From a virus: 37,595 nucleotides of DNA. A program made the position numbers and the translations under genes. Below the pieces are notes generated by a model. It saw nothing but the letters and a program-made list of their open reading frames with translations. It had not been told where the DNA came from and ran no database searches. Shown here piece by piece: positions 1,160 to 19,641 of the stretch (position 1 is its first letter; each line of letters opens with the position of its first letter). Location of the stretch: positions 1 through 37,595 of IMG/VR virus record IMGVR_UViG_3300045919_000046; one strand, given 5' to 3'.

Positions 1160-1377
1160 GTTACTTGAAGCAGTCGCATGGAATGGGTAGTTGGAAGTCG
1201 CGCAAGATTCAAAAGGGTGCCCGCGCATCTCGTGAATCTGGCCGCAAGAAGGGACTTGTTCCTCCGTCCTGGGCACGAGCATGTGCCCGTATGGCAAGGG
1301 CTTACAAGAATAATCCGCGTTATTCGGATTGGAATGCAAAGTGTGATGGTGGCAAAGTCAAGTGGAGTGGTGCATAA
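1156..1377 (+). CDS. Small, strongly basic hypothetical protein
   Basis: A 73-residue protein rich in Lys and Arg (for example SWKSRKIQKGARASRESGRKK), with tryptophans spread through it. The charge suggests nucleic-acid binding or binding to an acidic surface, but there is no recognisable domain. Its TAA stop shares a base with the ATG of the glutamine amidotransferase gene (TAATG), so its translation is probably coupled to the amidoligase operon. Confidence 0.65.
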   Translation: MSYLKQSHGMGSWKSRKIQKGARASRESGRKKGLVPPSWARACARMARAYKNNPRYSDWNAKCDGGKVKWSGA

Positions 1378-2027
1378 TGAGACTTGTTTCCGCAATTTAC
1401 AACGACTTCTATCCTTTTGAAGCGTTGGACCTGTTCGATGATTTCATTGCCACTACCAACCCGGATGACCTCAATCCGGGGGATGTCCTTGTGGTGTGGG
1501 GTGGTGACGACATTTCCCCGGTCCTGTACAAGCATGGTCGATCATCCCGGTCACATGCGTGGCATCAAGGCATGAGCAAGCGTGATGCCATCGAGTGGGC
1601 GCTCATGCAAAAGGCGCGCAGCATGAATATTCCCATTATTGGAATCTGCCGTGGCGCGCAAATGTTGTGCGCGCTGGCTGGTGGGCATTTGGTGCAGGAT
1701 GTCAACAACCATTTCGGCTCACACAAGATGGACACCCCTGATGGCACGAAACTGCGTGCCAACAGCATTCATCATCAGATGATGGTGCCCCACGGCACTG
1801 CACATGAAATGCTGGCGTGGACTAAGCCTCTGTCCGAGCAATATGTGGTGTGTCCACATGACAAGGATGTTGTCTATGCGAAGATGAGCAACGAGGTTGA
1901 CCCGGAGTTTGTATACTTCAACGATGTCAAGGGCTTTGCTGTGCAATGGCATCCTGAAATGATGGATGTGAAGGAGAAAGCCACTCAATATGTATTCGAT
2001 ACAATTGAAAGGAAAATTGGGCAATGA
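1377..2027 (+). CDS. Class I glutamine amidotransferase-like hydrolase (peptidase C26/PuuD type)
   Basis: A 216-residue single-domain class I glutamine amidotransferase. The nucleophile elbow GICRGAQ holds the catalytic cysteine at residue 91, and AVQWHPE near the C-terminus supplies His192 and Glu194, completing the Cys-His-Glu triad of the family. C26 members cleave gamma-glutamyl amide bonds or release ammonia from glutamine. The ATG at 1377 is preferred over in-frame codons from 1362 because it forms a TAATG junction with the upstream gene and matches the expected beta-strand start. It lies at the head of an operon with two amidoligases, a class II amidotransferase and an ATP-grasp enzyme, so it probably trims a gamma-glutamyl product or feeds ammonia to a ligase. 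The family call is firm; the substrate is unknown. Confidence 0.9.
   Translation: MRLVSAIYNDFYPFEALDLFDDFIATTNPDDLNPGDVLVVWGGDDISPVLYKHGRSSRSHAWHQGMSKRDAIEWALMQKARSMNIPIIGICRGAQMLCALAGGHLVQDVNNHFGSHKMDTPDGTKLRANSIHHQMMVPHGTAHEMLAWTKPLSEQYVVCPHDKDVVYAKMSNEVDPEFVYFNDVKGFAVQWHPEMMDVKEKATQYVFDTIERKIGQ
1536..1547 (+). repeat. GGTCGATCATCC dispersed motif, copy 2
   Basis: Second exact copy, inside the class I amidotransferase gene, where it encodes parts of Gly-Arg-Ser-Ser. Confidence 0.45.
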
Positions 2028-2308
2028 AACCTATTCGTTGGCAAGAGCAGGAGTATTTGTATCAGGAAACTGTTTGCGGCTGTTGTGGGAGTGAGTTGTG
2101 CTTTACCCGAGAATCATTTGATGAAATCAACAGGGGGGTGATGTTCTTCGAGAGTGCTACCAAGTTGGATATTCCCCCTGAACCGTGGGAGTACGACATT
2201 AATGAAATTATTCAGCCTGATGGCACTTTCCTCTACATCAAGAGCTGTCTGCCCGGGGCTCATGGCCCGTGGGACAGGGACAGGGACAACGACGACAACG
2301 ACGACTAA
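2024..2308 (+). CDS. Small protein with CGCC motif and acidic tail
   Basis: A 94-residue protein. The N-terminal part contains VCGCCGSELC, a Cys cluster that could bind zinc or act as a redox pair. The C-terminus is an extreme acidic low-complexity tail ending DRDRDNDDNDD, encoded by short GAC-rich tandem repeats at about 2275-2306. The gene overlaps the amidotransferase stop by four bases. It is conserved in place within the amidoligase operon but I do not recognise the family. Confidence 0.7.
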   Translation: MKPIRWQEQEYLYQETVCGCCGSELCFTRESFDEINRGVMFFESATKLDIPPEPWEYDINEIIQPDGTFLYIKSCLPGAHGPWDRDRDNDDNDD

Positions 2309-2321
2309 TCGGAGCATCAAT

Positions 2322-2771
2322 ATGCAAAGTTTTTACATGTATTTGTCCGGCCTGTCTAGCATTTTTTACACAAAGCGATATTTCGAGACTTGTCCTGACG
2401 TAGTAGGGGCCTGCCCCACTAACCAAATCATTGTGTGGGCTCGTAGCAAATACGGTACGTATATCATGAGAGGCACCCAGTATGATCATTTACGTATCTA
2501 TGCTGACATCACTTCTAAACAGAAGGAAGAATACGCCGCGACGGATAAAACAATTATTCCCACGTTTCTTGAGAAGTTACTCAAGTATGAGCAGGTGGTG
2601 ATTATCACTGCTCGGGAGCAGGACAAGTTCATGGATGACACCATTGAAATGTGCCCTGAAATGAAAGCTATGCTGGTGTTCCGGCAAGCTGAACGATATC
2701 AGAACAACAACTATCCTGATGATGAGCCTGCTCTCCGTACATACATTTTCCAGAAAGGAAATGCCAAATGA
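2322..2771 (+). CDS. Hypothetical protein, 149 aa
   Basis: The frame is open further upstream, but the ATG at 2322 (MQSFYMYLSGL) follows the previous stop by 13 bases with a GGAG ribosome binding site, and the upstream extension only shadows the previous gene. The 149-residue product has no clear motif. It overlaps the start of the COOH-NH2 ligase gene by four bases, so it is likely co-translated with it. Function unknown; a partner of the amidoligases is possible only by position. Confidence 0.75.
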   Translation: MQSFYMYLSGLSSIFYTKRYFETCPDVVGACPTNQIIVWARSKYGTYIMRGTQYDHLRIYADITSKQKEEYAATDKTIIPTFLEKLLKYEQVVIITAREQDKFMDDTIEMCPEMKAMLVFRQAERYQNNNYPDDEPALRTYIFQKGNAK

Positions 2772-3559
2772 AGTTCTCCCTGGGAGCTGACCCCGAACTG
2801 TTCATGAAGGATGCTAATGACGCATTCTTCTCTGCCATTGGCATTGTTGGTGGCACCAAGATGATGCCCCGCAAGCTGGATGGACTTCCCGATGGCTTCG
2901 CTGTGCAAGAGGACAACGTGGCTGTTGAGTACAACATCCCGCCGAGTGCAACGAAGGACCAGTTCATTCAGAACATTGGACAAGCAATGTCCTACTTGTC
3001 CGACGAGGTGTCCAAGCGTGGGTTGTACTTTGTCAATGTGTCGGCAACGAATGAGTTTCCCGATTGGCAACTGGACATGCCAGCAGCCAAGGTGTTTGGG
3101 TGTGACCCCGACTACAACGCGTGGGACAATGGCCGGCGCAACCCACGCCCCAAGGCCACTGACGCTGCCTTGCGCACCTGTGGTGGTCATGTCCACATCG
3201 GTGGTATCTCTCTGGACAAACGGTCGATCATCCACTTCATGAAGCACATGGACCTGTTCGCTGGAGTGCCTAGTGTTCTGATGGACAAGGGTGAGCTACG
3301 CAAGCAACTGTATGGCAAGGCAGGCGCCTATCGGCTGAAGCCCTATGGGGGCGAATATCGTAGTCTGTCCAATTTCTGGGTGTTTGATCCGAAGTTGTGT
3401 GAATGGGTTTGGAATGCCACTGATATGGCCGTGAACGCATGGCAAGACGGAAGCGTCGCAATTGATCAGGATGGCCCGATGATCCTTGAAGCAATCAACA
3501 ACAATAATAAAGATATTGCAATGCACCTTGTTCACAAGTACAATCTGCTGGTGGTGTGA
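2768..3559 (+). CDS. COOH-NH2 ligase type 2 (phiEco32-like amidoligase)
   Basis: A 263-residue protein resembling the phage phiEco32-like COOH-NH2 ligase type 2 family, which has a glutamine-synthetase-like fold and is predicted to join a carboxylate to an amine using ATP. Visible hallmarks are GADPELF (residues 6-12), the acidic strand EDNVAVEYNIPP (49-60), FGCDPDYNAW (110-119), CGGHVHIGG (138-146) and YGGEYRSLSNFW (193-204). These acidic and His residues match the metal and nucleotide sites expected of the fold. The gene sits between two unknown genes and shares an operon with a second amidoligase, two amidotransferases and an ATP-grasp protein. The substrate is unknown; identification is by recalled motif, not a search. 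Confidence 0.85.
   Translation: MKFSLGADPELFMKDANDAFFSAIGIVGGTKMMPRKLDGLPDGFAVQEDNVAVEYNIPPSATKDQFIQNIGQAMSYLSDEVSKRGLYFVNVSATNEFPDWQLDMPAAKVFGCDPDYNAWDNGRRNPRPKATDAALRTCGGHVHIGGISLDKRSIIHFMKHMDLFAGVPSVLMDKGELRKQLYGKAGAYRLKPYGGEYRSLSNFWVFDPKLCEWVWNATDMAVNAWQDGSVAIDQDGPMILEAINNNNKDIAMHLVHKYNLLVV
3222..3233 (+). repeat. GGTCGATCATCC dispersed motif, copy 3
   Basis: Third exact copy, inside the COOH-NH2 ligase gene, where it encodes Arg-Ser-Ile-Ile. Shorter matches (GGTCGATCA) occur at 5413 and 15092 on the plus strand and in sense orientation on the minus strand at 22438-22446. Confidence 0.45.
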
Positions 3560-3562
3560 CAC

Positions 3563-4132
3563 ATGATTGAAACATTTACGTCAGAGAACTCGGGTGACTT
3601 CCAAGCCCGATACGCTGAGACATTTGGTTGGCTACATCGAACGGATAGGAAGCAGTTCATCAATCTTGAGTCTGTGATTGAAGACAAGGTGTCATTTTCC
3701 ATTGGCACCCATCACAAATACTCTGTGAACATCAACTCGGGCATTAACTTTGAGTTCATTCCGGTTGATCGTGGATGGTTTAACACCACCAATGGTGAGG
3801 TGGTGTATTTGCAGCGTCGTCCTGCCCGTCAATGGAAGCGTGGCATCAGCGAGAGCAATACAGAAATATATGATGCCTATCGAAGTAGGGTTGATCTGAC
3901 GTTTGCTCGGCTGTCCTCCATCTTTGAGAATCCCAATAAGTGGGGCATTAAGCCCAGTCAATGTGCCATTTCAAAGCAGTTTGCAATGCTCCCTGATGGC
4001 ACTGTGTATTTCTACCTCCATTGTGTTGGGCGATGGGTAGATAACACAATTATTCTGGACAACTCCATTGTTGAACAAGAGCTGCGAGATCAGCTCACTC
4101 GACAACAATCAACCATTGAGGTGAAAGTATGA
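3563..4132 (+). CDS. Hypothetical protein between the two amidoligase genes
   Basis: A 189-residue soluble protein starting three bases after the COOH-NH2 ligase stop and overlapping the second amidoligase start by four bases. No signal peptide, membrane helix or known motif is visible; the first half is rich in aromatic and polar residues and the second half is probably helical (YDAYRSRVDLTFARLSSIF). Its position between two ligases makes it a candidate substrate, carrier or regulatory subunit, but that is inference from context alone. Confidence 0.75.
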   Translation: MIETFTSENSGDFQARYAETFGWLHRTDRKQFINLESVIEDKVSFSIGTHHKYSVNINSGINFEFIPVDRGWFNTTNGEVVYLQRRPARQWKRGISESNTEIYDAYRSRVDLTFARLSSIFENPNKWGIKPSQCAISKQFAMLPDGTVYFYLHCVGRWVDNTIILDNSIVEQELRDQLTRQQSTIEVKV

Positions 4133-5142
4133 GTAGTATTTCTTCGTTGTGGGGACGCCTGACACCCCCCTCCTATCACTACAAGGACGCCCCCAAGCTG
4201 GATGCACCAGACAGCACTGGGCTGTACGGCATTGAGCTTGAGATTGAGGATGTTCACGAGGATATGGTGGTGAAGGGCTTCACTGCCACCACTGACGGGA
4301 GTCTGCGTAACAGCGGACTTGAGTTCATCTCTGCCCCAATGAGCTATCACAACATGGTGCATGGCTTGAACCTGTTCTTCTCCAAGAATGAACTATCTGA
4401 GGACAACTACTCCGACCGGACATCCATTCACATTCATGCCAATTGCCTGGACATTTCCCTCAGCCAGCTCGGGTCTGTGCTGATGGTGTATCAGGTGTTT
4501 GAAGAACTGCTGTTCATGTTTGTTGGGGAGGATAGAAATAAAAATATTTTTTGCACCCCTCTGAGTGAGTGTGCTGTTGTCTTCGGCATGTGTGAGCGGC
4601 TTCATGCAGGGGATCATAGTGTGATTAGCGGTTGGCCCAAGTACACTGCTCTCAACCTGCATCCGATTTGTGAGCATGGCACTGTGGAATTTCGACACAT
4701 GGCCGGTACACATGATGTGGCAAAGATTGTTCGGTGGCTGCGTCTCATTGGGCACATCATTGCCTATGCCAAGGCTCACACGTATGAGGCCATCAAGACC
4801 ACATTGATTAGCCTCAACACTACGTCTGAGTATCAGCAACTACTCACGGCGGTGTTTCATGAGGACAGCATTATCCTGCAACAGAATGGATATCAAATGA
4901 TGATGGAATCTGGAGTGTTGAATATGAAATATAGTGTGTTGAAGAAACCCCTGTCGCCTGGGTTTATGCTCCTTGATTCCAATTTGTGGGCAACCATCCA
5001 TGAGGCACCGAGGTTTGAGCAAGGCCTCACTGATTTGCTGAATGACGTACGAAACCCTGCGGGGGCATGGGCACGTGACCCACCCATGGCTGAAGAAGAC
5101 ACCCGAGCACAAGTCGCTCGTCCGATTCGGAGGCCCGCCTAA
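4129..5142 (+). CDS. Putative amidoligase (Amidoligase_2 family)
   Basis: A 337-residue protein with the hallmarks of the Amidoligase_2 family, a glutamine-synthetase-fold group predicted to form amide or peptide bonds. Visible motifs in order are GIELEIE (34-40, metal-binding acidic strand), DGSLRNSGLEFISAP (56-70), SIHIHAN (99-105) and the paired NLHPI and GTVEFRHMAGT near 176-194, which carry the His/Arg nucleotide site. The last 40 or so residues are proline- and arginine-rich and may be disordered. It overlaps the class II amidotransferase by one base (TAATG), so the two are coupled and may act together, the amidotransferase releasing ammonia or transferring a glutamine-derived amide. 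The substrate is unknown. Confidence 0.87.
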   Translation: MSSISSLWGRLTPPSYHYKDAPKLDAPDSTGLYGIELEIEDVHEDMVVKGFTATTDGSLRNSGLEFISAPMSYHNMVHGLNLFFSKNELSEDNYSDRTSIHIHANCLDISLSQLGSVLMVYQVFEELLFMFVGEDRNKNIFCTPLSECAVVFGMCERLHAGDHSVISGWPKYTALNLHPICEHGTVEFRHMAGTHDVAKIVRWLRLIGHIIAYAKAHTYEAIKTTLISLNTTSEYQQLLTAVFHEDSIILQQNGYQMMMESGVLNMKYSVLKKPLSPGFMLLDSNLWATIHEAPRFEQGLTDLLNDVRNPAGAWARDPPMAEEDTRAQVARPIRRPA

Positions 5143-6437
5143 TGTGTGGCTTGGTTGCATTTGTGTCTGCCTATTCCAATGGGTTTAGCACAGAGGAAGC
5201 TGATACCTTCCGTGACATGCTTGTGATTGACACCCTACGGGGCTTTGACAGCACTGGTGTGTGTGGCATTGAGAATAATGGAAATATTACCACTGTCAAG
5301 GACGCCATCAATGGTGCTTCCTTTGTTCAGACAAAGGAATTCTCCTCCTTTAAGACGGACATGATTTACAAGGGCATCTTTATGTTTGGTCACAATCGGG
5401 CTGCAACCCGAGGGTCGATCACAGACAGGAATGCCCACCCTTTCTGTGTAAATGATAACATTATTCTCGCTCAGAATGGCACCTACAACGGGGACCATAA
5501 ACACCTGAAGGATACTGACGTTGATAGTGAGGCACTGGCCCATGTGTTGGAGGAATATCCCAATATTGAAGATGCGCTACAGCGTGTCAATGCTGCATAC
5601 TCACTCATTTGGTACAACGTGAAGGAGAGTACGCTGTACTTCATTAACAATGGCAAGCGGCCAATGCATGTGACCTACACCAAGGACGGTGGCGCATTGT
5701 TTGCCTCTGAGAGTGAGACAATCTTGGCTGCTGCATCACGCAACATGTTGACATTGGACAAAGCCCCATATCCTATTGCTGAGAGTGCCCTGGTGTCGTT
5801 CAAGTTGGACAAAGCCACTCGCTCTTGGTCAAGCGATTGCAAGAAGAATATGAACATTGACTTCGACTACAAGCACTCTCCCTTTCGTAATTACACGCAT
5901 AGCCCAGAAATGGGGAATATTGGGGGTACTTGGCGCGGCTGGCCTAATTACCGAACTCCAGAAACGCCTGTCACCCACACCGCGCCCAAAGCGTATCAAG
6001 AACATCCAAACTCGATGCTGAAGAACATTCATGACTTTGTTGGCACTGGTGCTCTTGATGAGTATCATCTGAGTCCTCATGAGTGCACCGTTATTCAGGA
6101 TTCTATGCGGATGACTCCCCGCAGCAAGCCGACGTTCATTGAGGCTCTTGACTATTTCCCATGCAATCATCATGCCGATTGCACCTCATGGATTGTTTAC
6201 GGGGTGTCAGTGAACGCTTCACTGGGGTCCAAGTCTGCTGTGTATTACAAGGTGTTCTTCGACAAAACGGAAAAGGAGATCATTGACATCACAGCTCACA
6301 CTTGGTTTGAGGTGAATGGCAACAATCCTGTCACTCACATGTATCGTGATGAAAAGACGAGTGACAATCATCGTGTTGTCACGGTGTTCTGCCCGGAAAT
6401 GGAACCCATTGATATGGAAAAGACTGGAACACAATGA
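5142..6437 (+). CDS. Class II glutamine amidotransferase (Ntn-type), GATase_6-like
   Basis: A 431-residue protein whose N-terminus is MCGLVAF: once Met is removed, Cys becomes the N-terminal nucleophile of the class II (Ntn) glutamine amidotransferases. The other expected elements are present: GHNRAATRG (83-91) with the substrate-binding Arg, NGTYNG (112-117) with the oxyanion Asn-Gly, and VDSEAL (127-132). ASESETILAA near residue 190-200 also fits the family. Residues from roughly 220 to 431 are an additional region that I cannot assign; it could dock to a synthetase partner. Class II domains normally deliver ammonia to an attached or separate synthetase, and here the adjacent amidoligases and ATP-grasp enzyme are the obvious partners. 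Confidence 0.9.
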   Translation: MCGLVAFVSAYSNGFSTEEADTFRDMLVIDTLRGFDSTGVCGIENNGNITTVKDAINGASFVQTKEFSSFKTDMIYKGIFMFGHNRAATRGSITDRNAHPFCVNDNIILAQNGTYNGDHKHLKDTDVDSEALAHVLEEYPNIEDALQRVNAAYSLIWYNVKESTLYFINNGKRPMHVTYTKDGGALFASESETILAAASRNMLTLDKAPYPIAESALVSFKLDKATRSWSSDCKKNMNIDFDYKHSPFRNYTHSPEMGNIGGTWRGWPNYRTPETPVTHTAPKAYQEHPNSMLKNIHDFVGTGALDEYHLSPHECTVIQDSMRMTPRSKPTFIEALDYFPCNHHADCTSWIVYGVSVNASLGSKSAVYYKVFFDKTEKEIIDITAHTWFEVNGNNPVTHMYRDEKTSDNHRVVTVFCPEMEPIDMEKTGTQ

Positions 6438-7147
6438 AACCATTTGACATTGTTGTCGACCCAGTGGGGTCGAAGTTTGCCAAGTCCCTACAGCAGGCGT
6501 TGAGGGACAAGGTAAATAATAAAGTTTTTCGTCGTAGTACTCCACACCCAGGGGGACGAGTGTATTTCTCTGTCACCCAACGGGCACTTAACAAGGTAGA
6601 ACAGTTTGAGCGATTCAGACATTTCGGGGTTATTCATCCTCCCTTTCACACTACACCTGATACGATTGAGAGAAGCCCTACTCGAACCATCTTTGCGAGA
6701 ACACTTATCAACGCGACAAATGGAAGAGGCATTGTCGAGTTTACAACAGATATCAGTTCATTCCCAAATAGTCCGCTCTATACTGAGTACATCCCAAAGA
6801 AAGCTGAATACCGATTCCACGTCTTCCACGGAAAAGTAATTGATGTTCAACAAAAGAAAAAGAGTAGGACATTCGACAACGACCAGCGAAATAGTCGTGT
6901 TCGTAATGTCGCTAATGGTTACGTGTATTGCCGGGACGGTATTGACATTCCTGATGGTGCTAGCTCTCTTGCTATTGACGCCGTTAAGGCTTTGGGCTAT
7001 ACTTACGGCGCGGTGGACATGATTTACAATGAGAAGCGGGCTCAATGCTATGTTCTTGAGGTAAACAGTAGACCCGGTCTGATGGGTACCACCCTTGATA
7101 AATATGCTGATGCAATTATTAACCAATACAATTTGCAAAGGAAATAA
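6434..7147 (+). CDS. ATP-grasp ligase-like protein
   Basis: A 237-residue protein with the C-terminal half of an ATP-grasp fold. EYRFHVFHGKVIDVQQK (125-141) is the typical strand pair, ARG-rich loop RNVANGYVY follows, and AVDMIY (193-198) plus YVLEVNSRPGLMGTT (206-220) contain the Asp, Glu and Asn that bind the two magnesium ions. ATP-grasp enzymes activate a carboxylate as an acyl phosphate and couple it to an amine or thiol. The N-terminal domain is short and partly unrecognisable, as in phage-type members of the group. It overlaps the amidotransferase by four bases and ends the recognisable amidoligase operon. Confidence 0.87.
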   Translation: MKPFDIVVDPVGSKFAKSLQQALRDKVNNKVFRRSTPHPGGRVYFSVTQRALNKVEQFERFRHFGVIHPPFHTTPDTIERSPTRTIFARTLINATNGRGIVEFTTDISSFPNSPLYTEYIPKKAEYRFHVFHGKVIDVQQKKKSRTFDNDQRNSRVRNVANGYVYCRDGIDIPDGASSLAIDAVKALGYTYGAVDMIYNEKRAQCYVLEVNSRPGLMGTTLDKYADAIINQYNLQRK

Positions 7148-7710: not shown

Positions 7711-7934
7711 TTAAAATTCGCTGCCAATGCTGCAATCGCAACCTATCCGACTATGAGAGTCGTTTGCGCCACCCAGTCACTAATGAGTTTCTCGACATTT
7801 GCAAGAAATGCCTCGATGATATTCCTATTATTCCTGTGGCCCCAACAGACATGGATGACAGTATGCTTGTGAATGACGACGATGATTTCTGTGTCAACTA
7901 TCTCCTAGCTGATGATGATGAGCAACAGGTATGA
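7710..7934 (+). CDS. Small CxxC zinc-binding protein, apparent ATT start
   Basis: An open frame of 74 codons with no ATG, GTG or TTG at its beginning. It reads IKIRCQCCNRNLSDYESRLR, followed by a second pair CKKC (31-34), a pattern typical of small phage zinc-finger proteins with two Cys pairs about 25 residues apart; the tail is very acidic (NDDDDF, ADDDEQQ). The first codon that would give the usual M-K-I-R-C beginning is ATT at 7710, overlapping the previous stop as TAATT. An ATT at 7716 is also possible and is better spaced from GAGGAG at 7702-7707. The frame is closed upstream by TGA at 7695. It overlaps the primase start by 23 bases. Confidence 0.65.
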   Translation: MKIRCQCCNRNLSDYESRLRHPVTNEFLDICKKCLDDIPIIPVAPTDMDDSMLVNDDDDFCVNYLLADDDEQQV

Positions 7935-10833: not shown

Positions 10834-11026
10834 TTTGTTTAATGAGAGATCGTTGTTTACAGAAGACGATTGGATTGATGAACTACACGACGCATATTTT
10901 GCAAACATGGATCAAGGTGTTAAGTGGCTGACGGAACAATACACTGAGAAGTGGGAGAAAGAAAATAAAATCCTTGCAGACACAATCAATCTTATTCTTA
11001 GACGTAGAAACCTCGACACACAATAA
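10826..11026 (+). CDS. Small hypothetical protein, TTG start
   Basis: A 66-residue acidic helical protein from the TTG at 10826, overlapping the previous stop by eight bases and the polymerase N-part by 53. It fills the only stretch (10834-10973) between two confident genes, and its sequence (DDWIDELHDAYF, TEQYTEKWEKENK) looks protein-like. A shorter form from the ATG at 10907 is possible. Function unknown. Confidence 0.5.
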   Translation: MNNLFNERSLFTEDDWIDELHDAYFANMDQGVKWLTEQYTEKWEKENKILADTINLILRRRNLDTQ

Positions 11027-12191
11027 GGGACACTATGCAGACCCTAGAAACATACTGGTCAGTTTTGCTACGTATTGTCAGCAGTCCGGTATTAACTTTA
11101 AATATTATCGTGATCCTGACTTCATTAGCTCTTTGCGTGCTGACGTGGAATCTGCCGATGTCGTGGTTGGCTTCAACATTAAGTTTGATCTTCATTGGTT
11201 ACTCCGTGAGGGAATTGAAATTAAATTGGACCAGCGAGTATGGGATTGTCAACTTGCCGAATTCATCTACTCAGGACAAACACTAGCCTATGACTCCCTC
11301 AATGCAGCGTTGGAACGCTATGGTCTACCACTTAAGCACGACGCCGTTGCTGAGTATTGGGACCAGGGAATTTCAACAGAGAACATCCCGATTGAAGTAT
11401 TGCAAGAGTACAACATTTGGGATGTCGTTCCTTCCACTACAGAACTATTTCGCATCCAACAGGAGTTGTTGAGTGATGAACAAAAGCAATTGGTTTGGCT
11501 CGAAGGTGAAGACCTTAAAACTCTCCTTGCTGCAGAGCATGCAGGAATGCTATTTGATGTTGCTGGAGCAAATGAAAAACTATCCAGGTACAACAACGAT
11601 TTGGCTACTATCGGTAGTAGCCTTGCTGCTTATCTTCCTGGGGCAATGCATGAGCTGGGTAGGGAGTACCCTACCTGTCAGTTCAATTGGGACTCTGGTG
11701 ACCACCTAAGTGCCTTTCTATACGGAGGTAAACTTACTTTCTCCTATGCGATATCTAACACAGCGGTCTATAAAAGTGGGCCGAATAAGGGCCAGTCGTA
11801 TGAGAGGAATAAGTGGCATGAAGCAACCGTGGCCTTTGATCAGCGATTTAGGCCGCTTGAGGGTACGGAGGTTGCGAAAACTAAAGCCAATCCTAACGCG
11901 GAGGTTCGTTTTTACCAAACCGATGGGCCCACGCTATCACAGCTATCAGCTCGTAAGACCGAACAAAAACATATATTGGGGCTACTGGCCGAACGGTCAG
12001 CTAAGGTTAAGGTCGTTGAAATGATTGCCAGCGTCTTGGCAAAGATGGAGGAGAAGTATTGGGAGAACAACCTTGTACATGCACAGTTTAACCAAAATGT
12101 TGCTGTGACAGGACGACTTAGTTCATCACAACCCAATTTGCAGAATACACCACCTGAACTGGATGAACTATTAGTGAGTAGATATGGATGA
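10974..12191 (+). CDS. Family A DNA polymerase, N-terminal part (3'-5' exonuclease and thumb)
   Basis: A 405-residue protein carrying the proofreading half of a Pol I-type polymerase. The exonuclease motifs are complete: LFLDVETST (Exo I, Asp10 and Glu12), GFNIKFDLHWL (Exo II, Asn68 and Asp72) and EYNIWD (Exo III, Tyr146 and Asp150). Near the end is TGRLSSSQPNLQNTP, the conserved segment just before the palm. The reading frame stops after LLVSRYG, before motif A; the catalytic half resumes in a different frame at 12338. The start is a TTG at 10974, the only start codon shortly before Exo I. The split is described separately below. Confidence 0.9.
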   Translation: MQTQSILFLDVETSTHNKGHYADPRNILVSFATYCQQSGINFKYYRDPDFISSLRADVESADVVVGFNIKFDLHWLLREGIEIKLDQRVWDCQLAEFIYSGQTLAYDSLNAALERYGLPLKHDAVAEYWDQGISTENIPIEVLQEYNIWDVVPSTTELFRIQQELLSDEQKQLVWLEGEDLKTLLAAEHAGMLFDVAGANEKLSRYNNDLATIGSSLAAYLPGAMHELGREYPTCQFNWDSGDHLSAFLYGGKLTFSYAISNTAVYKSGPNKGQSYERNKWHEATVAFDQRFRPLEGTEVAKTKANPNAEVRFYQTDGPTLSQLSARKTEQKHILGLLAERSAKVKVVEMIASVLAKMEEKYWENNLVHAQFNQNVAVTGRLSSSQPNLQNTPPELDELLVSRYG

Positions 12192-12348
12192 TAACCAACT
12201 AATAAAACAAATTTCCCAGATGAGTTCATGGGAACTTCTTGAATGGGTTCTTAGTAGCCCGACAGACCTTACAGATTCATATTATTTAAAGTTTCGCACT
12301 GCGATTATGAATCGTTATGAAGAGTTGAAGAAAATTCGTGCTGGTTAA
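12184..12348 (+). CDS. 54-aa protein interrupting the DNA polymerase gene
   Basis: A complete ORF from ATG 12184 to TAA 12346-12348, overlapping the polymerase N-part by eight bases and the C-part by 11, in the third reading frame. The product, with SWELLEWVLSSPTDLTDSYY in the centre, is an acidic helical mini-protein. It resembles the small phage protein at 16391 (shared LLE...STDL.D pattern), so it may belong to a family of short phage proteins. It has no HNH, GIY-YIG or LAGLIDADG motif and so is not a homing endonuclease. Function unknown. Confidence 0.6.
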   Translation: MDDNQLIKQISQMSSWELLEWVLSSPTDLTDSYYLKFRTAIMNRYEELKKIRAG

Positions 12349-13057
12349 CGCCGATGTGAAAGGTCTTGAACTGTTTGTCGCTGCCGACCTATCAGGCGAC
12401 GAGACAATGCGAGAAGAACTCAGAAACAAGGTGGATTTGCATGCTGCAAATCAGCTTCGCTTTAGACTACCTGATCGAGTTACGGCGAAACGTTTTGTCT
12501 TTAAGTTATTGTACGGAGCTTCCGCATATGGATATTTCACAGACGCAGACTTCATCGGAGTTGGGTACTCCCAACGACAATGGCAAGCAGTAATTGATGA
12601 GTTTTACGCCAAATATACAGGTATTGCTAAATGGCACATTGAAATCATTAAGCAATCTAAAAGAGATGGATACCTCTCAATACCCTCTGGTAGATATTAC
12701 AATTTCCCTGCAAGAAAGGACAAGTGGGGACGATGGGGATGGCATGAGCAAGCCATCAAGAATTACCCCGTACAAGGATTTGGAGCGGATATTGTCAAAC
12801 TGGCAAGAGTGGAATTCTTCAAGCGTTTTGTAGCGTCTGGGTTGCCTGGAGAATTTATTTGTACGGTACATGACTCACTTGTGGTTGACACACCGCAAGA
12901 AGTGTGCTATACTATAGGTAGGATGTTAAAAGAGTCGGTGGAGAGTACTCCCCTCCTGATGAAACAATGGTTCAACTACGATTTTAGCCTCCCCATGTTC
13001 TGTGAAGTTTCGGTTGGTTCGAACATCAGGGACATGAAAGAAATAAACTTTAATTAA
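12338..13057 (+). CDS. Family A DNA polymerase, C-terminal part (palm and fingers)
   Basis: A 239-residue protein with the polymerase active site. LVNADVKGLEL (2-12) is motif A with the catalytic Asp6; RVTAKRFVFKLLYG (47-60) is motif B, the fingers O-helix with Arg, Lys and the Tyr-Gly pair; TVHDSLVVD (176-184) is motif C with His178 and Asp179, where Ser replaces the more usual Glu. KNYPVQGFGADIVK (141-154) is the conserved Q-helix region. The first usable start is GTG 12338; a TGA at 12326-12328 closes the frame upstream. It needs the N-part in trans for proofreading, so the two chains probably associate. A strong promoter-like sequence lies inside this gene at 12885. Confidence 0.9.
   Translation: MLVNADVKGLELFVAADLSGDETMREELRNKVDLHAANQLRFRLPDRVTAKRFVFKLLYGASAYGYFTDADFIGVGYSQRQWQAVIDEFYAKYTGIAKWHIEIIKQSKRDGYLSIPSGRYYNFPARKDKWGRWGWHEQAIKNYPVQGFGADIVKLARVEFFKRFVASGLPGEFICTVHDSLVVDTPQEVCYTIGRMLKESVESTPLLMKQWFNYDFSLPMFCEVSVGSNIRDMKEINFN
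12885..12913 (+). promoter_or_regulatory. Probable sigma70 promoter inside the polymerase gene
   Basis: TTGACA (12885-12890) matches the -35 consensus exactly and TATACT (12908-12913) matches five of six -10 bases, with the optimal 17-base spacer. It lies about 150 bases before the SSB-like gene at 13067 and would give a leader of roughly that length. It coincides with codons after motif C, so coding constraint may explain part of it. Confidence 0.6.
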
Positions 13058-13573: not shown

Positions 13574-13793
13574 ACAATTTCCTAGCAAGAAATATGGCTT
13601 CTCTGACTACCTGAAAACCACAGGTAGTTATCTGATCACTGAGTCCATGACAGATGCAGCGTATCAAAAAATTAAAGATGCTGCTAAGTTCTGGGCTTGG
13701 TATCACGACAAGCGAGTGACTATTAGGAAGAATAAGAATGGTGATGGCACATGTTTTGTAGTCATCACTCTGGTTGCACATCACCGGAAGTAA
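13539..13793 (+). CDS. Small basic phage protein, 84 aa
   Basis: The frame opens at 13515 with several possible starts; ATG 13539 (MKTWQRATQKTKQF) is chosen, ATG 13530 is an alternative. The product has a helix-turn region SYLITESMTDAAYQKIKDAA followed by FWAWYHDKRVTIRKNKNG and a final strand FVVITLVAH. Short phage proteins with a Trp-Ala-Trp-x-x segment followed by basic strands are common; function unknown. It overlaps the SSB-like gene by about 35 bases. Confidence 0.65.
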   Translation: MKTWQRATQKTKQFPSKKYGFSDYLKTTGSYLITESMTDAAYQKIKDAAKFWAWYHDKRVTIRKNKNGDGTCFVVITLVAHHRK

Positions 13794-13840
13794 CAATATT
13801 TTCGACTACAAGCAATCAAGTCACATTAAAAGAAAATACA

Positions 13841-14200
13841 ATGTCTTTTAGACTTGCAGAGAAAACGGCTCGTAAGAGCCAACATAGTAAACACCGTATG
13901 GGAGCCGTCATTGTGAAAGGCTCCCGCATTCTTAGTACAGGACACAATGAACTTCGATACTCTCATCTCATTAAAGAACCAACTCTCCACGCTGAAGCTG
14001 CAGCCGTTTTGGGACTTCTTAAAGAAGGTAGACTTTCTGATCTCGTGGGGAGTGAGATTTACGTTACTCGGTTTACTCGTGGCGGTCGCGTTGGGATGGC
14101 AAAGCCCTGCCCCAAGTGTATGGGCCTTCTTAGGAGTGTGGGCGTGGGCCGATGTCATTGGACTACTAATGAAGGAACAACTGAGGAACTTCGTCTTTGA
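13841..14200 (+). CDS. Cytidine/dCMP deaminase-like zinc enzyme
   Basis: A 119-residue deaminase-fold protein. The zinc site is complete: HAEAAAVL holds His50 and the proton-shuttling Glu52, and KPCPKCMGLL holds Cys90 and Cys93. The N-terminus, HRMGAVIVKGSRILSTGHN, is the typical strand pair with the substrate-binding Asn. The ATG at 13841 is preferred over an upstream extension. It could deaminate dCMP to dUMP for thymidylate supply, but the substrate cannot be told from sequence and it is shorter than T4-type dCMP deaminase. It overlaps the exonuclease start (TTGA). Confidence 0.83.
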   Translation: MSFRLAEKTARKSQHSKHRMGAVIVKGSRILSTGHNELRYSHLIKEPTLHAEAAAVLGLLKEGRLSDLVGSEIYVTRFTRGGRVGMAKPCPKCMGLLRSVGVGRCHWTTNEGTTEELRL

Positions 14201-14895
14201 TCGCTCTAATTGATGCAGACAATGTAGCCATTGCGGCTGCATTCTCTGCCGAGGATCAACCCGAGGCAATTGCATGTGCTAGAGCGGGAGAGATGATACT
14301 CGGTATCTTGGCAGACTCCTCGGCAGACAAATACGAGTTGTGGCTCACAGGACCTAACAACTTCCGCTATAACATCTACCCAGAATACAAAGGGGACCGC
14401 ACTGATAAGAAACGTCCCAAGTGGGAAAAGCAAGTAAAGCAATATTTCCGGGATCAGTGGAATGCCAACACAACAGATGGCATTGAGGCTGATGACATGC
14501 TAGGTATTCGCCTCACGGAGGAGGGAAATAATGGAATTATGTGTCATTTGGACAAGGATATGAATTCCATTGCTGGCAATCACTTTAACTGGGAACTACG
14601 TCGAAAGGGAAATGTTGTTCGGGAGAAACGAAACTATTATGTCACGCCTGAAGAAGCGGATTATTTCTTCTTTTATCAACTACTTGTTGGCGACGGGACA
14701 GACTTCATCAAAGGAGCATCTGGGATCGGCCCTAAGAACGCGGCCCGGATTTTACAAGATTGTTACACCAATGCCGAACGTTTGGCTGCTGTACAAGACT
14801 ATTTCTCCTGTGAAGAAGAACTAGACATGACCGCCCAGTGTATCTACATCTGGAGAAAGCGAGAAGACAACTGGAAAAACATTCTAAAGAGTTAG
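14197..14895 (+). CDS. 5'-3' exonuclease (flap endonuclease family)
   Basis: A 232-residue PIN-like nuclease. The acidic metal ligands are visible in order: ALIDADN (Asp6, Asp8), DGIEADDMLG (Asp99, Asp100), and HLDKDMNSI (Asp119, Asp121). YKGDRTDKKRP is the arch/basic region, and GDGTDFIKGASGIGPKNAARIL (166-187 region) is the helix-3-turn-helix with the Gly-Ile-Gly loop that holds the DNA backbone. It would remove RNA primers and flaps, a job normally done by the exonuclease domain of cellular Pol I; here it is a separate gene like the T7 and T5 enzymes. The start is TTG 14197, overlapping the deaminase stop. Confidence 0.9.
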   Translation: MIALIDADNVAIAAAFSAEDQPEAIACARAGEMILGILADSSADKYELWLTGPNNFRYNIYPEYKGDRTDKKRPKWEKQVKQYFRDQWNANTTDGIEADDMLGIRLTEEGNNGIMCHLDKDMNSIAGNHFNWELRRKGNVVREKRNYYVTPEEADYFFFYQLLVGDGTDFIKGASGIGPKNAARILQDCYTNAERLAAVQDYFSCEEELDMTAQCIYIWRKREDNWKNILKS

Positions 14896-15251
14896 TCGAA
14901 GGATGGACAGAGGGGCGTGTACATGGATACATTGTGAACACTCTCCGATATGGTAGTAGGAAATGGCCCCCTAAGTTTCAAACACTTAACGAGGCTAAGA
15001 CTGAAAAGAAAATCTCTGTTAAGTCAGGACGGCTAGCACAGCACTTTCGTTGTGCCTCCTGCTCAGAGGAGTTCACCAGTAAAGACATTGAGGTCGATCA
15101 TATTAAGCCAGTTGTAGATCCAAAGGTGGGGTTTGTCGATTGGAACACATACATCGAACGAATGTTCTGTCCTAAAAGTAATTATCAAGTTTTGTGCACT
15201 ACGTGCCACAAAGCCAAAACAAAACAAGAAAAACAAAAAGGCAATAAATGA
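14838..15251 (+). CDS. HNH endonuclease
   Basis: A 137-residue HNH nuclease. A zinc site (CASC and CTTC) flanks the HNH core: EVDHIKPVVDP gives the first His pair, and CHKAKTK the last. The sequence KTEKKISVKSGRLAQHFRCA, then VGFVDWNTYIERMFC, is a pattern typical of free-standing phage HNH proteins. The start is a GTG at 14838 overlapping the exonuclease by 58 bases; no later start precedes the conserved Trp-Thr-Glu-Gly-Arg region. It could act as a homing endonuclease or in packaging or DNA processing. Confidence 0.85.
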   Translation: MYLHLEKARRQLEKHSKELVEGWTEGRVHGYIVNTLRYGSRKWPPKFQTLNEAKTEKKISVKSGRLAQHFRCASCSEEFTSKDIEVDHIKPVVDPKVGFVDWNTYIERMFCPKSNYQVLCTTCHKAKTKQEKQKGNK

Positions 15252-15430
15252 AAATAATTGAAGTAGCACAGTTTAATGATGATGGCAGTGTGGAATGCAC
15301 AGCACTCTACACACCCGAAGAAGCCACTAGGCTATTGCAGTTTGCTGTTAATTTCATGCTAGCCGTTGGTAATACAGCTTCCATTCAACAATCCCATGAG
15401 GGTCAACTAGATTTGGAGTTTGACGATTAA
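15248..15430 (+). CDS. Small conserved-type phage protein, 60 aa
   Basis: A 60-residue acidic protein, MKIIEVAQFNDDGSVECTAL at the N-terminus. The pattern of a QFN.DGS strand followed by TPEEAT.LLQFAVNF is recurrent in small phage proteins of replication regions. It overlaps the HNH gene by four bases and the metallophosphoesterase by 11. Function unknown. Confidence 0.75.
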   Translation: MKIIEVAQFNDDGSVECTALYTPEEATRLLQFAVNFMLAVGNTASIQQSHEGQLDLEFDD

Positions 15431-16190
15431 ACACTTTGTCATTCCCGACACTCAGGTCAAACCAGGAGTAGATTTTGGATATCTCAAACACATCGGTCAG
15501 TACATTGTTGACAAGCAACCAGAGGTGGTTGTCTGTATTGGGGATTTTGCAGACATGCCAAGCCTCAGTTCGTATGACGTTGGCACTAAATCATTTGAAG
15601 GCCGCAGGTATCGTGCCGACATTGAAGCAACGTGGGGAGCTATGGAATGCCTGTTGGGTCCTATCCGGGAGTTCAATGCGAAAGCTAAGCGCGGACATCG
15701 TGAACGATATAACCCAAGACTCGTACTTACCCTTGGAAACCACGAACATCGAATTACCAAAGTCGTCAACACCGACCCCAAGCTGGACGGAACCATAGGT
15801 CTTGACGACCTTCGATACAAGGAGTATGGTTGGGAGGTTGTTCCATTTCTTGATGTCATTGTCATTGATGGTATTGCTTACAGTCACTATTTTACTTCCG
15901 GTGTTCTTGGTAGACCTTGTGGTTCGGCCGCCGTTCAACTTAACAAGAAACATATGTCATGCGTGGCAGGACACCAACAAGGGTTCCAAGTAGCTACGTC
16001 ATATCGTGCTGATGGTAAGCGGCTGACAAGTATTATTGCTGGCAGTTGTTATGAACACAATGAAGACTACATGGGACCCCAGGGTAACAACCATTGGCGA
16101 GGTGCTTTAATGCTGCACAATGTTAATGATGGTGAGTTTGACTTGGTACAAGTGCCCTTAGGTTATTTGGAGAAGAAATATGGCAGCTAA
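15420..16190 (+). CDS. Metallophosphoesterase
   Basis: A 256-residue calcineurin-like phosphoesterase. The dimetal motifs appear in order: IPDTQ (Asp10; Gln where many enzymes have His), CIGDFADM (Gly-Asp at 41-42), LTLGNHEHRI (Asn-His) and VAGHQQG (Gly-His). Enzymes of this kind hydrolyse phosphomonoesters or phosphodiesters, including nucleotides and nucleic acid ends; which one cannot be told here. The start is a TTG at 15420, directly before the first beta strand. It overlaps the DUF3310 gene by 11 bases. Confidence 0.9.
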   Translation: MTIKHFVIPDTQVKPGVDFGYLKHIGQYIVDKQPEVVVCIGDFADMPSLSSYDVGTKSFEGRRYRADIEATWGAMECLLGPIREFNAKAKRGHRERYNPRLVLTLGNHEHRITKVVNTDPKLDGTIGLDDLRYKEYGWEVVPFLDVIVIDGIAYSHYFTSGVLGRPCGSAAVQLNKKHMSCVAGHQQGFQVATSYRADGKRLTSIIAGSCYEHNEDYMGPQGNNHWRGALMLHNVNDGEFDLVQVPLGYLEKKYGS

Positions 16191-16685: not shown

Positions 16686-17172
16686 TGCCCTCAACAAGAA
16701 GCTTTGCTTTGAGAATGACAAAGAATGGGAAAATGTTGTCAGGCTTGACATTGATGAAGGATGCAAGCCAGATGTACTTTGGGACTTGAACGACAGGCCA
16801 CTTCCATTTGAAGACAACCAGTTTGACGAACTGCACGCCTATGACGTACTAGAGCACATTGGTAGGCAAGGAGATTGGCGTGGATTCTTTGCAGAGTTCA
16901 CAGAGTATTTCCGCATCATCAAGCCCAATGGTCACTTCTTCATCATTGTGCCCCGAGCCGCAGATGTGTGGGCTTGGGGTGATCCAGGACATACACGAGT
17001 GCTTCCTTTGGAAGTGTTTACATTCCTAGATCAAAATGCCTACAAGGAGGTTGGTGCAACTGCACGAACCGACTATCGTAGTGTGTGGCAAGGAAATTTT
17101 GAAACTATTTGGGCTAAGGAAGAGGGTGCTGCACTCCTTCTTATTTTAAAGGCAATTAAGGATGCAAATTAG
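16660..17172 (+). CDS. Class I SAM-dependent methyltransferase-like protein
   Basis: A 170-residue Rossmann-fold methyltransferase-like protein. MELLLGSGNALNKK is the glycine-rich SAM loop, VVRLDID holds the acidic residue that binds the ribose, and DLNDRPLPFEDNQFDELHAY with DVLEHIG is motif III/IV of small UbiE-like phage methyltransferases. No target-recognition domain is present and no DPPY-type motif is visible, so DNA base methylation is not supported; a small-molecule or cell-envelope substrate is equally possible. It overlaps the LAGLIDADG gene by 11 bases. Confidence 0.82.
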   Translation: MELLLGSGNALNKKLCFENDKEWENVVRLDIDEGCKPDVLWDLNDRPLPFEDNQFDELHAYDVLEHIGRQGDWRGFFAEFTEYFRIIKPNGHFFIIVPRAADVWAWGDPGHTRVLPLEVFTFLDQNAYKEVGATARTDYRSVWQGNFETIWAKEEGAALLLILKAIKDAN

Positions 17173-17512
17173 TCCAGAATATTTAGCGGGCTTTTGGGAT
17201 GGTGAAGGTTGTTTTTATATGGGACTACAAAAAGCAAAACATCCCGATAATCCAAAGTTGTATCCTAAAGCACAGGTGTTATTGTCTCAATCTGGTGATG
17301 ATGGTTTAAAGCTGCTTGAAGCCATACAAGCACAGTATAAAGGCTCTATTTACACACATCTTAAGCCTGGACAGCATAGAGCGAAGAAAACGGCATACAA
17401 AATTTGGTGGAATAAAGGTGAAGCAATTCAGCTCATTCATATTTTACTTCCGTACCTAATTCTAAAGAAAACTGAAGCGGAAACAGTTCTGCAATACTTG
17501 ACAAGGGAATAA
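17162..17512 (+). CDS. LAGLIDADG-type homing endonuclease
   Basis: A 116-residue protein opening with YLAGFWDGEGCFY (7-19), a clear LAGLIDADG motif whose Asp/Glu bind the catalytic metal. Only one motif is present, so it should act as a homodimer. It lies between the methyltransferase and nrdJ, ending exactly at the nrdJ start, in a slightly more AT-rich stretch. Free-standing endonucleases of this kind cut phage genomes that lack the gene, spreading themselves and neighbouring alleles; nrdJ or the adjacent junction is the likely target. Confidence 0.87.
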   Translation: MQISPEYLAGFWDGEGCFYMGLQKAKHPDNPKLYPKAQVLLSQSGDDGLKLLEAIQAQYKGSIYTHLKPGQHRAKKTAYKIWWNKGEAIQLIHILLPYLILKKTEAETVLQYLTRE

Positions 17513-19186
17513 ATGATTCGACAATATTTTAAGACACCATTTGCAGAACAGATTTTTCGTGCAAAATACAGCCAGGGCCCAAATGATGACTGGGGTGCTT
17601 TAGCCGAGAGAGTTGTTGATGATGTATGTGGTACACATCAAGGAAAAGGCCCAATGTTAATGTCAGATTCTGACAGAAAAGACCTGCTAGAGCACATTAA
17701 ATCATTTCGCTTCGTGCCAGGTGGCAGGTATCTTTATTATAGTGGGCGACCATATCATGCTTGGAATAACTGTTACCTTCTCCGTGCTGAAGAAGACACC
17801 CGAGAAGAGTGGAGCGCAGTAACATGGCGAGCAATGAGTTGTTTAATGACTGGCGGAGGTATTGGCGTTGATTACTCACGAATTAGACCAGCGGGTCGAC
17901 CCCTTTCTCGTACCGGCGGAATTGCTTCCGGACCTATCCCACTTATGGCAGCAATCAATGAAATTGGGCGTAATGTTATGCAGGGTGGATCAAGACGCTC
18001 TGCAATCTATGCTAGTCTCAATTGGCAACATGAGGACATTCCTGACTTCCTTAGAGTCAAAAATTGGGATGATGGTACAAAGCAACGAAAGCTAGATAAC
18101 TTTAATGCTTCTGCTCCACTGGACATGACCAATATTAGCGTCAACTATGATGACGCTGCTCTGAGGCAGACATGGAACAGTACTACAGGATATACCAATC
18201 ATCTAGAGGACAATCCCATATTCCTCCAGAATGTTCGTCAGGCAATGGAGACAGGTGAACCTGGGTTTAGCTTTAACTTTGGATTGAAACAGAATGAAAC
18301 CTTGCGAAACGCGTGTACAGAAGTTACATCGGAGGATGATTCTGACGTATGCAATCTTGGCAGTATCAATCTTGGCAATATCACGAGTTTGGAAGTATTC
18401 AAGAATGTCGTATCTCTCGCTTCCAAGTTCTTGGTATGTGGAACCTTACGAGCCGATCTTCCCTACGACAAAGTATATAAAGTTAGGGAAAAGAACCGTC
18501 GCCTTGGGCTTGGACTCATGGGAATTCACGAGTGGCTACTCCAACGAGGAAAGAAGTACGAAGTAGACGATGAACTACGCATATGGATGGAGGTTTACAG
18601 AAGTGAATCAGAACGAGCAGCCAATGAACATTGTGATCGGTTCTATATCAGCCGCCCTGTCGCGTATCGGGCAATTGCACCAACCGGCACAATTGGAATT
18701 CTTGCATCCACAACTACAGGAATTGAGCCGCTATTTGCGGTTGCTTACAAACGTCGCTTCCTCACTGAAGGAACGAAGTGGAAATATTCCTACGTAGTAG
18801 ATGCAACAGCCGACCGACTAATTAAAGAATATGGAATCACCCCGGACACCATTGATACCGCCTATAAGCTTGCAGGAGACTATGAGCGGCGTATCAAATT
18901 CCAAGCAGACATTCAAGACTTTGTTGACATGTCAATTTCAAGTACAATCAATCTCCCAGCTTGGGGAAGCAAAGGAAACAATGAAGGCAGCATTGGAGAA
19001 TTTGCAAAGGTACTTGCAAGCTATGCACCCCGTCTTCGAGGATTCACTTGTTATCCAGATGGAAGTCGAGGAGGTCAACCTATCACAGAGTGTGACTACA
19101 GCACAGCCATCCAGCACAAAGGAGCTGTGTACGAAGAACACGACGTGTGCGACATTACAGGGCATGGTGGCTCCTGCGGCGTTTAA
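17513..19186 (+). CDS. nrdJ: Adenosylcobalamin-dependent ribonucleotide reductase (class II)
   Basis: A 557-residue class II ribonucleotide reductase that converts ribonucleotides to deoxyribonucleotides without a separate radical-generating subunit, using coenzyme B12 from the host or medium. FVPGGR and NNCYLL (Cys87) mark the N-terminal redox cysteine; RNACTEV (265-271) holds catalytic Asn266, Cys268 and Glu270; VCNLGSINL (279-287) holds the second redox cysteine; APTGTIGILASTTTGIEPL (389-407) is the phosphate-binding loop. The C-terminus CDITGHGGSCGV carries the mobile Cys pair that re-reduces the active site. The length is compact but all key residues are present, so it should be active. 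Confidence 0.94.
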   Translation: MIRQYFKTPFAEQIFRAKYSQGPNDDWGALAERVVDDVCGTHQGKGPMLMSDSDRKDLLEHIKSFRFVPGGRYLYYSGRPYHAWNNCYLLRAEEDTREEWSAVTWRAMSCLMTGGGIGVDYSRIRPAGRPLSRTGGIASGPIPLMAAINEIGRNVMQGGSRRSAIYASLNWQHEDIPDFLRVKNWDDGTKQRKLDNFNASAPLDMTNISVNYDDAALRQTWNSTTGYTNHLEDNPIFLQNVRQAMETGEPGFSFNFGLKQNETLRNACTEVTSEDDSDVCNLGSINLGNITSLEVFKNVVSLASKFLVCGTLRADLPYDKVYKVREKNRRLGLGLMGIHEWLLQRGKKYEVDDELRIWMEVYRSESERAANEHCDRFYISRPVAYRAIAPTGTIGILASTTTGIEPLFAVAYKRRFLTEGTKWKYSYVVDATADRLIKEYGITPDTIDTAYKLAGDYERRIKFQADIQDFVDMSISSTINLPAWGSKGNNEGSIGEFAKVLASYAPRLRGFTCYPDGSRGGQPITECDYSTAIQHKGAVYEEHDVCDITGHGGSCGV

Positions 19187-19191
19187 GCCAA

Positions 19192-19641
19192 ATGACCACT
19201 GTAATCGTAACTAAAGACCTAATGGTGGGTGACCGACAATTCACCCATTCATCAGGTATGAAAATGACTGGAAAGACAAAGATTTATGAAATTCCTGAAT
19301 TCACTGCAAACAGCATATTTGAAAGTAAAAGAGTATTCATCGGCTTTGCCGGTGACACGGGCTCATTTGGTAACATTCTTAATTGGCTTTATGACCCCAC
19401 TGGTCGTGTACCTAAGCTGGGTAATGTTGACCTAGTGATGCTCAACCATAGGCACGAGATATACACTGCCATTTCACTCACCAATTGGCTACAGATGAGT
19501 CAGCCCTTCTATGCCATTGGTAGTGGATCAGAGTATGCCATGGGTGCTATGGAGGCTGGTAAGACACCACAGGAAGCTATTAAAGTTGCTTCCAAATTTG
19601 ATAGTAGTACAGGTAAAGGTTTTACGGTGTTAACCATGTAA
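19192..19641 (+). CDS. HslV/proteasome-like Ntn hydrolase
   Basis: A 149-residue protein beginning MTTVIVTKDLMVGDRQ. The bacterial peptidase HslV begins with the same Thr-Thr-x-Val pattern, in which Thr exposed after Met removal is the nucleophile, followed by a Gly-Asp about 11-13 residues on. The later YAIGSGSEYAMGAMEAG and TPQEAIKVASKFDSSTGKG segments also match the HslV/proteasome beta-subunit layout. No HslU-like ATPase is visible in the window. Similar small proteins occur in other phages, but their role is not established; it may process phage or host proteins or be catalytically silent. It is the last rightward gene before the terminator. Confidence 0.8.
   Translation: MTTVIVTKDLMVGDRQFTHSSGMKMTGKTKIYEIPEFTANSIFESKRVFIGFAGDTGSFGNILNWLYDPTGRVPKLGNVDLVMLNHRHEIYTAISLTNWLQMSQPFYAIGSGSEYAMGAMEAGKTPQEAIKVASKFDSSTGKGFTVLTM

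Follow-up and report, generated by a model that had tools for sequence, protein, structure and literature searches.

Known phage amidoligase cassettes and the locus examined

Discussion of phage gene clusters that combine amidoligases with further enzymes reportedly goes back to Iyer 2009 and Hardies 2013. Later papers, among them one that cites Hardies 2013 and Iyer (PMC5498523), use the name putative 'peptidoglycan modification cassette', and the published guess is that it modifies peptidoglycan peptides to stop superinfection or to tune lysis (PMC5498523, PMC11945000, PMC10580990). In a literature search that had Iyer 2009 and Hardies 2013 outside its scope, neither a cassette product nor a change in peptidoglycan nor a superinfection block was shown; this agrees with an earlier sequence-only reading of the DNA analyzed here, which knew of no product. 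We analyzed a cassette of this kind in the IMG/VR virus record IMGVR_UViG_3300045919_000046, whose whole stretch of 37,595 bases is called the window below. Its five enzymes (A, D, F, G and H in Table 1) very probably work in one pathway. The leading reading, which we hold tentatively, is a soluble mid-infection pathway for gamma-glutamyl or aminoacyl amides with peptidoglycan precursor peptides as the leading target.

The cassettes of RIO-1/PSA-HP1-, phiEco32-, LUZ24-, PA11- and CW02-like phages contain the same enzyme families as the window beside primase and helicase genes, and in the members examined the same protein, E, lies between both amidoligases. Like the published cassette, the window clusters two amidoligases, an ATP-grasp protein and a glutamine amidotransferase near replication genes. 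It lacks the gamma-glutamyl cyclotransferase (GGCT) of the published cassette, for which no match was found in six frames of the 37.6-kb window, a record that may be a fragment. Gene order differs as well, being A-G-D-E-F-H in Zobellviridae and A-D-E-F-G-H in the window, and a recognizable A is absent from LUZ24- and phiEco32-like members (none was found in the cassette region of LUZ24, Cronobacter phage A24 or SU10). The sequence-only reading had equated the locus with the set described in phiEco32-like phages. The relationship to the phiEco32-like/LUZ24-like lineage stands, but the set is not exactly the same, as no class I protein was detected in the cassette region of the kuravirus SU10 or of the related phage A24. 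The order of the window recurs in Alcaligenes phage vB_Af_QDWS535 (OK172329), the closest cultured phage by D; identity to the window is 43% for D and 29% for F, and QDWS535 has a GGCT upstream of A. Four IMG/VR contigs (L013, L014, L016 and L019) also share this order with similar spacing (D 50-61%, E 32-42% identity) but differ from the window by other open reading frames (ORFs) in the A-D gap. Similarity to the phage collection at the DNA level was limited to stretches of <100 bases. The cassette is of a kind already known and widespread, and the window holds a divergent member. What is new is that E has a fixed place, evolves fast and lacks a significant fold match, that B and C are passengers, that two architectures exist and that A can be read in another way.

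Table 1. Genes of the cassette region, with positions in the window
Gene	Position	Strand	Product and features
A	1377..2027	+	Class I glutaminase-fold protein (Peptidase_C26), triad Cys91-His192-Glu194
B	2024..2308	+	Passenger ORF of 94 residues in the A-D gap, CxxC motif
C	2322..2771	+	Passenger ORF of 149 residues in the A-D gap
D	2768..3559	+	COOH-NH2 ligase type 2 (PF14395), glutamine synthetase / glutamate-cysteine ligase fold
E	3563..4132	+	Sixth module protein, mostly beta, motifs RxPxRQWKRGIxxxN (85-99) and QExxD (172-176)
F	4129..5142	+	Amidoligase_2 (PF12224), predicted glutamine-synthetase-like amidoligase
G	5142..6437	+	Stand-alone class II glutaminase, N-terminal nucleophile Cys, without synthase domain
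H	6434..7147	+	RimK-like ATP-grasp ligase, basic, isoelectric point (pI) 9.8

The genes from A to H overlap by 1-4 bases or are separated by gaps of 3-13. The chain of overlaps already begins upstream of A (642-1377), and the gene after H starts 2 bases past 7147; thus, the cassette lies inside a longer gene run and is no isolated operon. This bears on the sequence-only reading, which had described one complete, tightly overlapped operon of five proteins. All five are present with their key residues intact, as judged by Pfam, PHROGs and residue counts, and the tight packing was confirmed, but the genes are part of a longer run and a sixth conserved protein, E, had been overlooked. B and C were considered as parts of the module and rejected: among about 100 related loci, weak relatives of B occur in two only and no relative of C was found. 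In the window, the plus strand carries early genes and the minus strand late genes. End repeats were looked for in the record and none were found, and it is therefore probably partial.

Distribution, co-inheritance and architectures

D (PF14395) was detected in 317 and H in 311 of the 50,697 records of the phage collection, among them phages of Pseudomonas (121 with D, 120 with H), Escherichia (93 and 93) and Vibrio (22 and 22). With genus counts this close, D and H are present in almost the same set of phages. A scan of IMG/VR yielded 80 loci, which together with 11 loci from phage records and the window gave a set of 92. Among these, profiles detected D in 92, F in 90, G in 90, H in 87, A in 83 and E in 74 loci, with contig ends explaining some of the absences. 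GGCT was detected in only 15 loci and is thus not a core part. In the 65 loci with all six proteins, the pairwise identity matrices of A, D, E, F, G and H correlated with r values of 0.38-0.69, which were unmatched in 200 permutations. This suggests that the six proteins are largely inherited together, although the matrix test alone cannot separate this from shared phage ancestry. The operon conservation across phages proposed as a check of the earlier reading was thereby found, with D in several hundred records and the six proteins apparently co-inherited.

Two architectures were distinguished. Type I combines A, D, E, F, G and H, whose order varies; the window belongs to it, as do most phages of 45-50 kb that were encountered. 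Type II occurs in the crAss-like phage cr108_1, Leptolyngbya phage Lbo-JY46 and other larger contigs, often with the order GGCT-H-A-D-G-F. It shares the families of A, D, F, G and H with the window but differs by its order, by longer F (~480-600 residues) and G (mostly 450-730 residues) proteins and by the lack of an E detectable by profile.

The cassette adjoins a primase gene in 68 and a DnaB-like helicase gene in 60 loci. Its position beside primase, helicase and polymerase genes and its two glutaminase-fold proteins would suit a salvage of nitrogen or glutamate, in which glutaminases and ligases shift the pools of glutamine, glutamate and ammonia for nucleotide synthesis. This is very unlikely to be its role, because salvage would not call for a jointly inherited set that comprises E, a RimK-like ligase and a pair of divergent amidoligases.

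The cassette was also found on 11 contigs from bacterial or archaeal metagenome-assembled genomes, most with phage-like sets of cassette genes, and these were taken as putative phage contigs. Two contigs, L104 (G006:C350) and L105 (G003:C2), were binned with Stahlbacteria and Parcubacteria and encode long PF14395 proteins (~390-440 residues) beside homologues of H and G; one of the two contigs harbors two PF14395 copies and a shorter third match. Upstream of the cassette, gp14 and gp15 of LUZ24 and similar ORFs matched no Pfam family, and some ORFs of this set are related only among Zobellviridae-like phages. Cassettes of the Zobellviridae type share a further protein upstream of A (L010:6107-7039, L008:1138-2529, L012:2331-3815, L097:4822-5709 and L102:3953-4777). 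Genes of NAD salvage, encoding a phosphoribosyl pyrophosphate synthetase and a nicotin(amid)e phosphoribosyltransferase, lie within several kb upstream in A24 (L005:1-2267) and Lbo-JY46 (L009:3739-7948).

Enzyme families and active sites

Each protein was aligned with its phage homologues, and key residues were counted in up to 92 loci. A matches the C26 family (PF07722, 7.9e-21) and phrog_7218 (1.6e-31), and Cys91, His192 and Glu194 of its triad are kept in 78, 81 and 83 of 83 homologues, respectively. Its best PDB relatives in profile searches are, in this order, the Lin1909 protein, SpuA (entries 7d4r, 7d50 and 7d53, which we take to be SpuA) and PuuD. D matches PF14395 (5.5e-12, 45.9 bits against a cut-off of 25) and, over nearly its full length, phrog_3815 (COOH.NH2 ligase, 9.9e-77), and it keeps E10, E54, H141, H143, E196 and R198. 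The AlphaFold2 model of D has a predicted local distance difference test score (pLDDT) of 95.4, and all 50 PDB matches listed by Foldseek fall to glutamate-cysteine ligase or to glutamine synthetase (GS) and its homologues (TMq up to 0.52, prob 0.98-1.00). F matches PF12224 (9.6e-7, 29.4 bits against a cut-off of 22) and phrog_7469 (amidoligase, 8.8e-35); its residues E36, E38, H101, H103, E187 and R189 are invariant in 90 of 90 homologues. G, which matches GATase_6 (2.8e-13) and phrog_4736 (GATase-II, 4.1e-50), keeps the class II set of N-terminal nucleophile (Ntn) glutaminases, namely Cys2, Arg86, Asn112-Gly113 and Asp128, and its PDB relatives are the glutaminase domains of PurF and GlmS. 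In the alignment, the C-terminal Cys pairs found in most relatives of G are degenerate in the window copy. The Pfam match of H to RimK is marginal (2.4e-4, 21.2 bits against a cut-off of 21), but the assignment is secure against PHROGs (phrog_2599, ATP-grasp, 4.2e-48). RimK and alpha-L-glutamate ligases are its top PDB profile matches (best 2.3e-12), and it keeps K54, E125-x-R127, K141, D195 and E209-x-N211.

The active-site residues of A, D, F, G and H are thus nearly invariant across 83-92 related loci and the model of D has the fold of GS and glutamate-cysteine ligase, so that all five look like active enzymes. From their families, D, F and H are predicted to form amides driven by ATP, and A and G to cleave glutamine or gamma-glutamyl amides. 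The profile searches bear out the sequence-only reading for all five proteins, with Pfam cut-offs passed (RimK marginally) and strong PHROGs matches, as does the confidently predicted structure of D, which has the expected fold. Of its two amidotransferases, two glutaminase-fold proteins stand, but a role as ammonia donors is not settled. Because A and G are stand-alone proteins and A is nearest to Lin1909, SpuA and PuuD, hydrolysis of gamma-glutamyl amides is as compatible with the data as ammonia supply.

This alternative activity would fit a gamma-glutamyl cycle. Ligases are paired with enzymes that remove gamma-glutamyl groups in PuuA (GS-like) and PuuD (C26 hydrolase), in EgtA and EgtC (class II GATase-fold) of ergothioneine synthesis and in BtrJ (ATP-grasp) and BtrG (cyclotransferase) of butirosin synthesis. 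These pairs belong to the same broad fold classes as the cassette proteins, but D and F of the window represent other branches of the GS superfamily. A cycle in the style of these pairs, acting on a small molecule, is somewhat unlikely but possible. The ligases would attach glutamate to an amine as a handle or protecting group, and A, G and, where present, GGCT would remove it, yielding a metabolite or modified polyamine for replication, packaging or defence evasion. We keep this alternative because the closest solved relatives point there and because GGCT, an enzyme that splits gamma-glutamyl bonds, is a frequent companion of the cassette (in or beside it in LUZ24, CW02, phiM6, SU10, Lbo-JY46 and others). 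The Foldseek matches of D also include a gamma-glutamyl-methylamide synthetase and a 1-naphthylamine GS. However, the window has no GGCT and few type I loci contain one, substrates cannot be read off sequence neighbours, and the scheme leaves E without a role.

Most relatives of H are basic, with a median pI of 9.5, in contrast to the acidic to near-neutral proteins A, D, F and G. The basic character of H is perhaps a sign of a polyanionic partner. Together with the nearby replication genes it could also point to amino acids or amines being attached to phage DNA or to tRNA as a modification. We regard this as highly improbable, since no family of thymidylate synthases, base hydroxylases or base transferases was found among the scanned ORFs, a subset of those of the window in a record that is probably partial.

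A sixth protein between the amidoligases

E lies between D and F in all 73 loci that contain the three proteins, in 72 of them within a strict spacing window; in the remaining locus it is part of a longer open frame. Three loci scored without E (L058, L077 and L086) have a D-F gap of about the right size. In annotated phages this slot is occupied by an unnamed ORF of ~180-205 residues (LUZ24 gp17, CW02 gp8, TC6_050, VPp1 gp50, Klyazma orf053, A24 gp33, phiM6_75 and SU10_087). Earlier authors probably counted E in the 'seven-gene cassette' of PSA-HP1, which corresponds to ORFs 40-47 (PMC5498523). The proteome of SU10 lists a 23.3-kDa 'CDS 86' detected by one peptide (PMC4281155). SU10_087, the E homologue in the present record, has 23.2 kDa, and 'CDS 86' may be E, although the gene numbering disagrees. 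Searches for E without D gave no such case: a motif-pattern scan returned seven matches, four of them true E proteins beside D and three chance matches to a non-E protein, and a single-sequence scan found none.

The median identity of the window protein to those of other loci is 0.20 for E compared to 0.44 for D, with E evolving at roughly double the pace of the adjacent D. The AlphaFold2 model of E is confident (pLDDT 94.5). No significant fold match was found in the PDB (best E-value 0.1), and tandem SH3/Tudor-like parts of RapA, with template modelling (TM) scores of 0.34-0.36, are a weak lead only. Among viral predicted structures, 11 matches had E-values <= 0.001, including those to E of CW02 and to a protein of RIO-1. 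The idea that the longer type II proteins F and G contain a fused E was rejected, as no profile match was found (hhalign probability <1%). An amino-group carrier of the LysW type was rejected too, as the C-termini of 74 E homologues differ and contain no conserved acceptor residue.

The constant place of the fast-evolving E between the ligases might be explained by a tagging of proteins or peptides. Like RimK, H would extend a protein terminus by glutamate or a different amino acid, D and F would make isopeptide or capping amides, and E would be a carried substrate or an adaptor for the target. This reading draws on the similarity of H to alpha-L-glutamate ligases of the RimK type, on its ExR motif, which is assigned to peptide-linkage ligases (PMC4431377), and on its basic character, which may fit a macromolecular partner. 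The missing conserved C-terminus of LysW-kind carriers, the second architecture that manages without E and the lack of a known target make such tagging unlikely on balance. A related and still more doubtful proposal is that E is a target-binding or carried partner and that both amidoligases and the ATP-grasp protein act on or through it; the fast evolution of E would then be due to its facing the host.

Peptidoglycan precursor peptides as the leading candidate target

We return to the reading that we prefer, a soluble six-protein phage pathway which would form amide bonds at the cost of ATP during mid-infection. D and F would activate a carboxylate, probably the gamma-carboxyl of glutamate, as an acyl phosphate, which would then be coupled to an amine or to ammonia. 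H would extend a carboxylate by an amino acid that is probably glutamate, and A and G would supply ammonia or remove gamma-glutamyl groups, while E would bring the enzymes or their target together. The most likely target would be the peptide of cytoplasmic peptidoglycan precursors. The changed new wall of infected cells could hinder the lysozymes of other phages or tune the lysis by the phage itself. The wall is the leading target because its precursor peptides occur in the cytoplasm, where other systems act on them with enzymes of these fold classes, and because the named bacterial hosts among the matches listed are all Gram-negative.

No obvious membrane segment was found in any cassette protein. 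In PaP3, ORF32-48 belong to the middle class with peak expression at 10-30 min (PMC4707531), and a table for UFV-P2 equates its E homologue with PaP3 ORF47 (PMC3890496). The lack of membrane segments and the timing in PaP3 indicate that the pathway is most likely cytoplasmic and active in mid-infection, though the ATP-grasp, glutamine amidotransferase (GATase-II) and UPF0131 (GGCT) proteins detected in SU10 preparations were classed as early (PMC4281155).

Several points weigh against the wall as the target. No substrate or product of the cassette was found in the literature, Iyer 2009 and Hardies 2013 aside. None of the enzymes is specifically close to MurC-F, MurT/GatD or AsnB/LtsA, the best PDB neighbours being RimK, PuuD/SpuA and PurF/GlmS. 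The cassette lies beside replication genes and away from lysis genes. In addition, phages of Gram-negative bacteria mostly adsorb to structures of the outer membrane, so that a changed wall would not block adsorption.

Other genes of the window

Just before the primase gene, a 56-residue ORF (7764-7934, plus strand) without a Pfam match has homologues in 58 loci, and one homologue that was read has paired Cys motifs. Further downstream, all on the plus strand where a strand is given, DNA polymerase matches are split into 10974-12191 (+) and 12338-13057 (+), covering phrog_17 positions 669-986 and 1008-1238 with ~150 bases between them; this could be an intron, the scar of a homing element or a gene that is genuinely split. 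An HNH ORF is located at 14838-15251, and a LAGLIDADG endonuclease ORF (17162-17512, +) abuts the ORF of the ribonucleotide reductase large subunit (17513-19186, +). The window also encodes a dCMP/cytidine deaminase (13751-14200, +; PF00383, 3.2e-15) followed by a 5'-3' exonuclease (14197-14895), a metallophosphoesterase (15420-16190, +; phrog_221, 2e-59) and, at 19147-19641 (+), a protein with a weak match to proteasome subunits (Ntn hydrolases) that scores 18.6 bits, below the cut-off.

Significance for phage biology

Annotations of the cassette exist for hundreds of phages, among them common Pseudomonas phages and E. coli phages that bear the BASEL-collection names Bas86, Bas88, Bas89 and Bas94. 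With a core defined (A, D, E, F, G, H), GGCT as an optional member and the passengers separated, a concrete list of genes for knock-out and purification is available, in which E is named as the fast-evolving constant partner. The targets and roles named by the sequence-only reading (cell wall, protein tail or small molecule; defence evasion or exclusion of competitors) are all candidates, and a stop to superinfection or tuned lysis is a published guess. If A were a gamma-glutamyl hydrolase, this would change which metabolites to look for. If the amidoligases and the ATP-grasp protein do act on or through E, the cassette would be a phage system for peptide tagging or conjugate making that includes a protein of a previously unseen fold.

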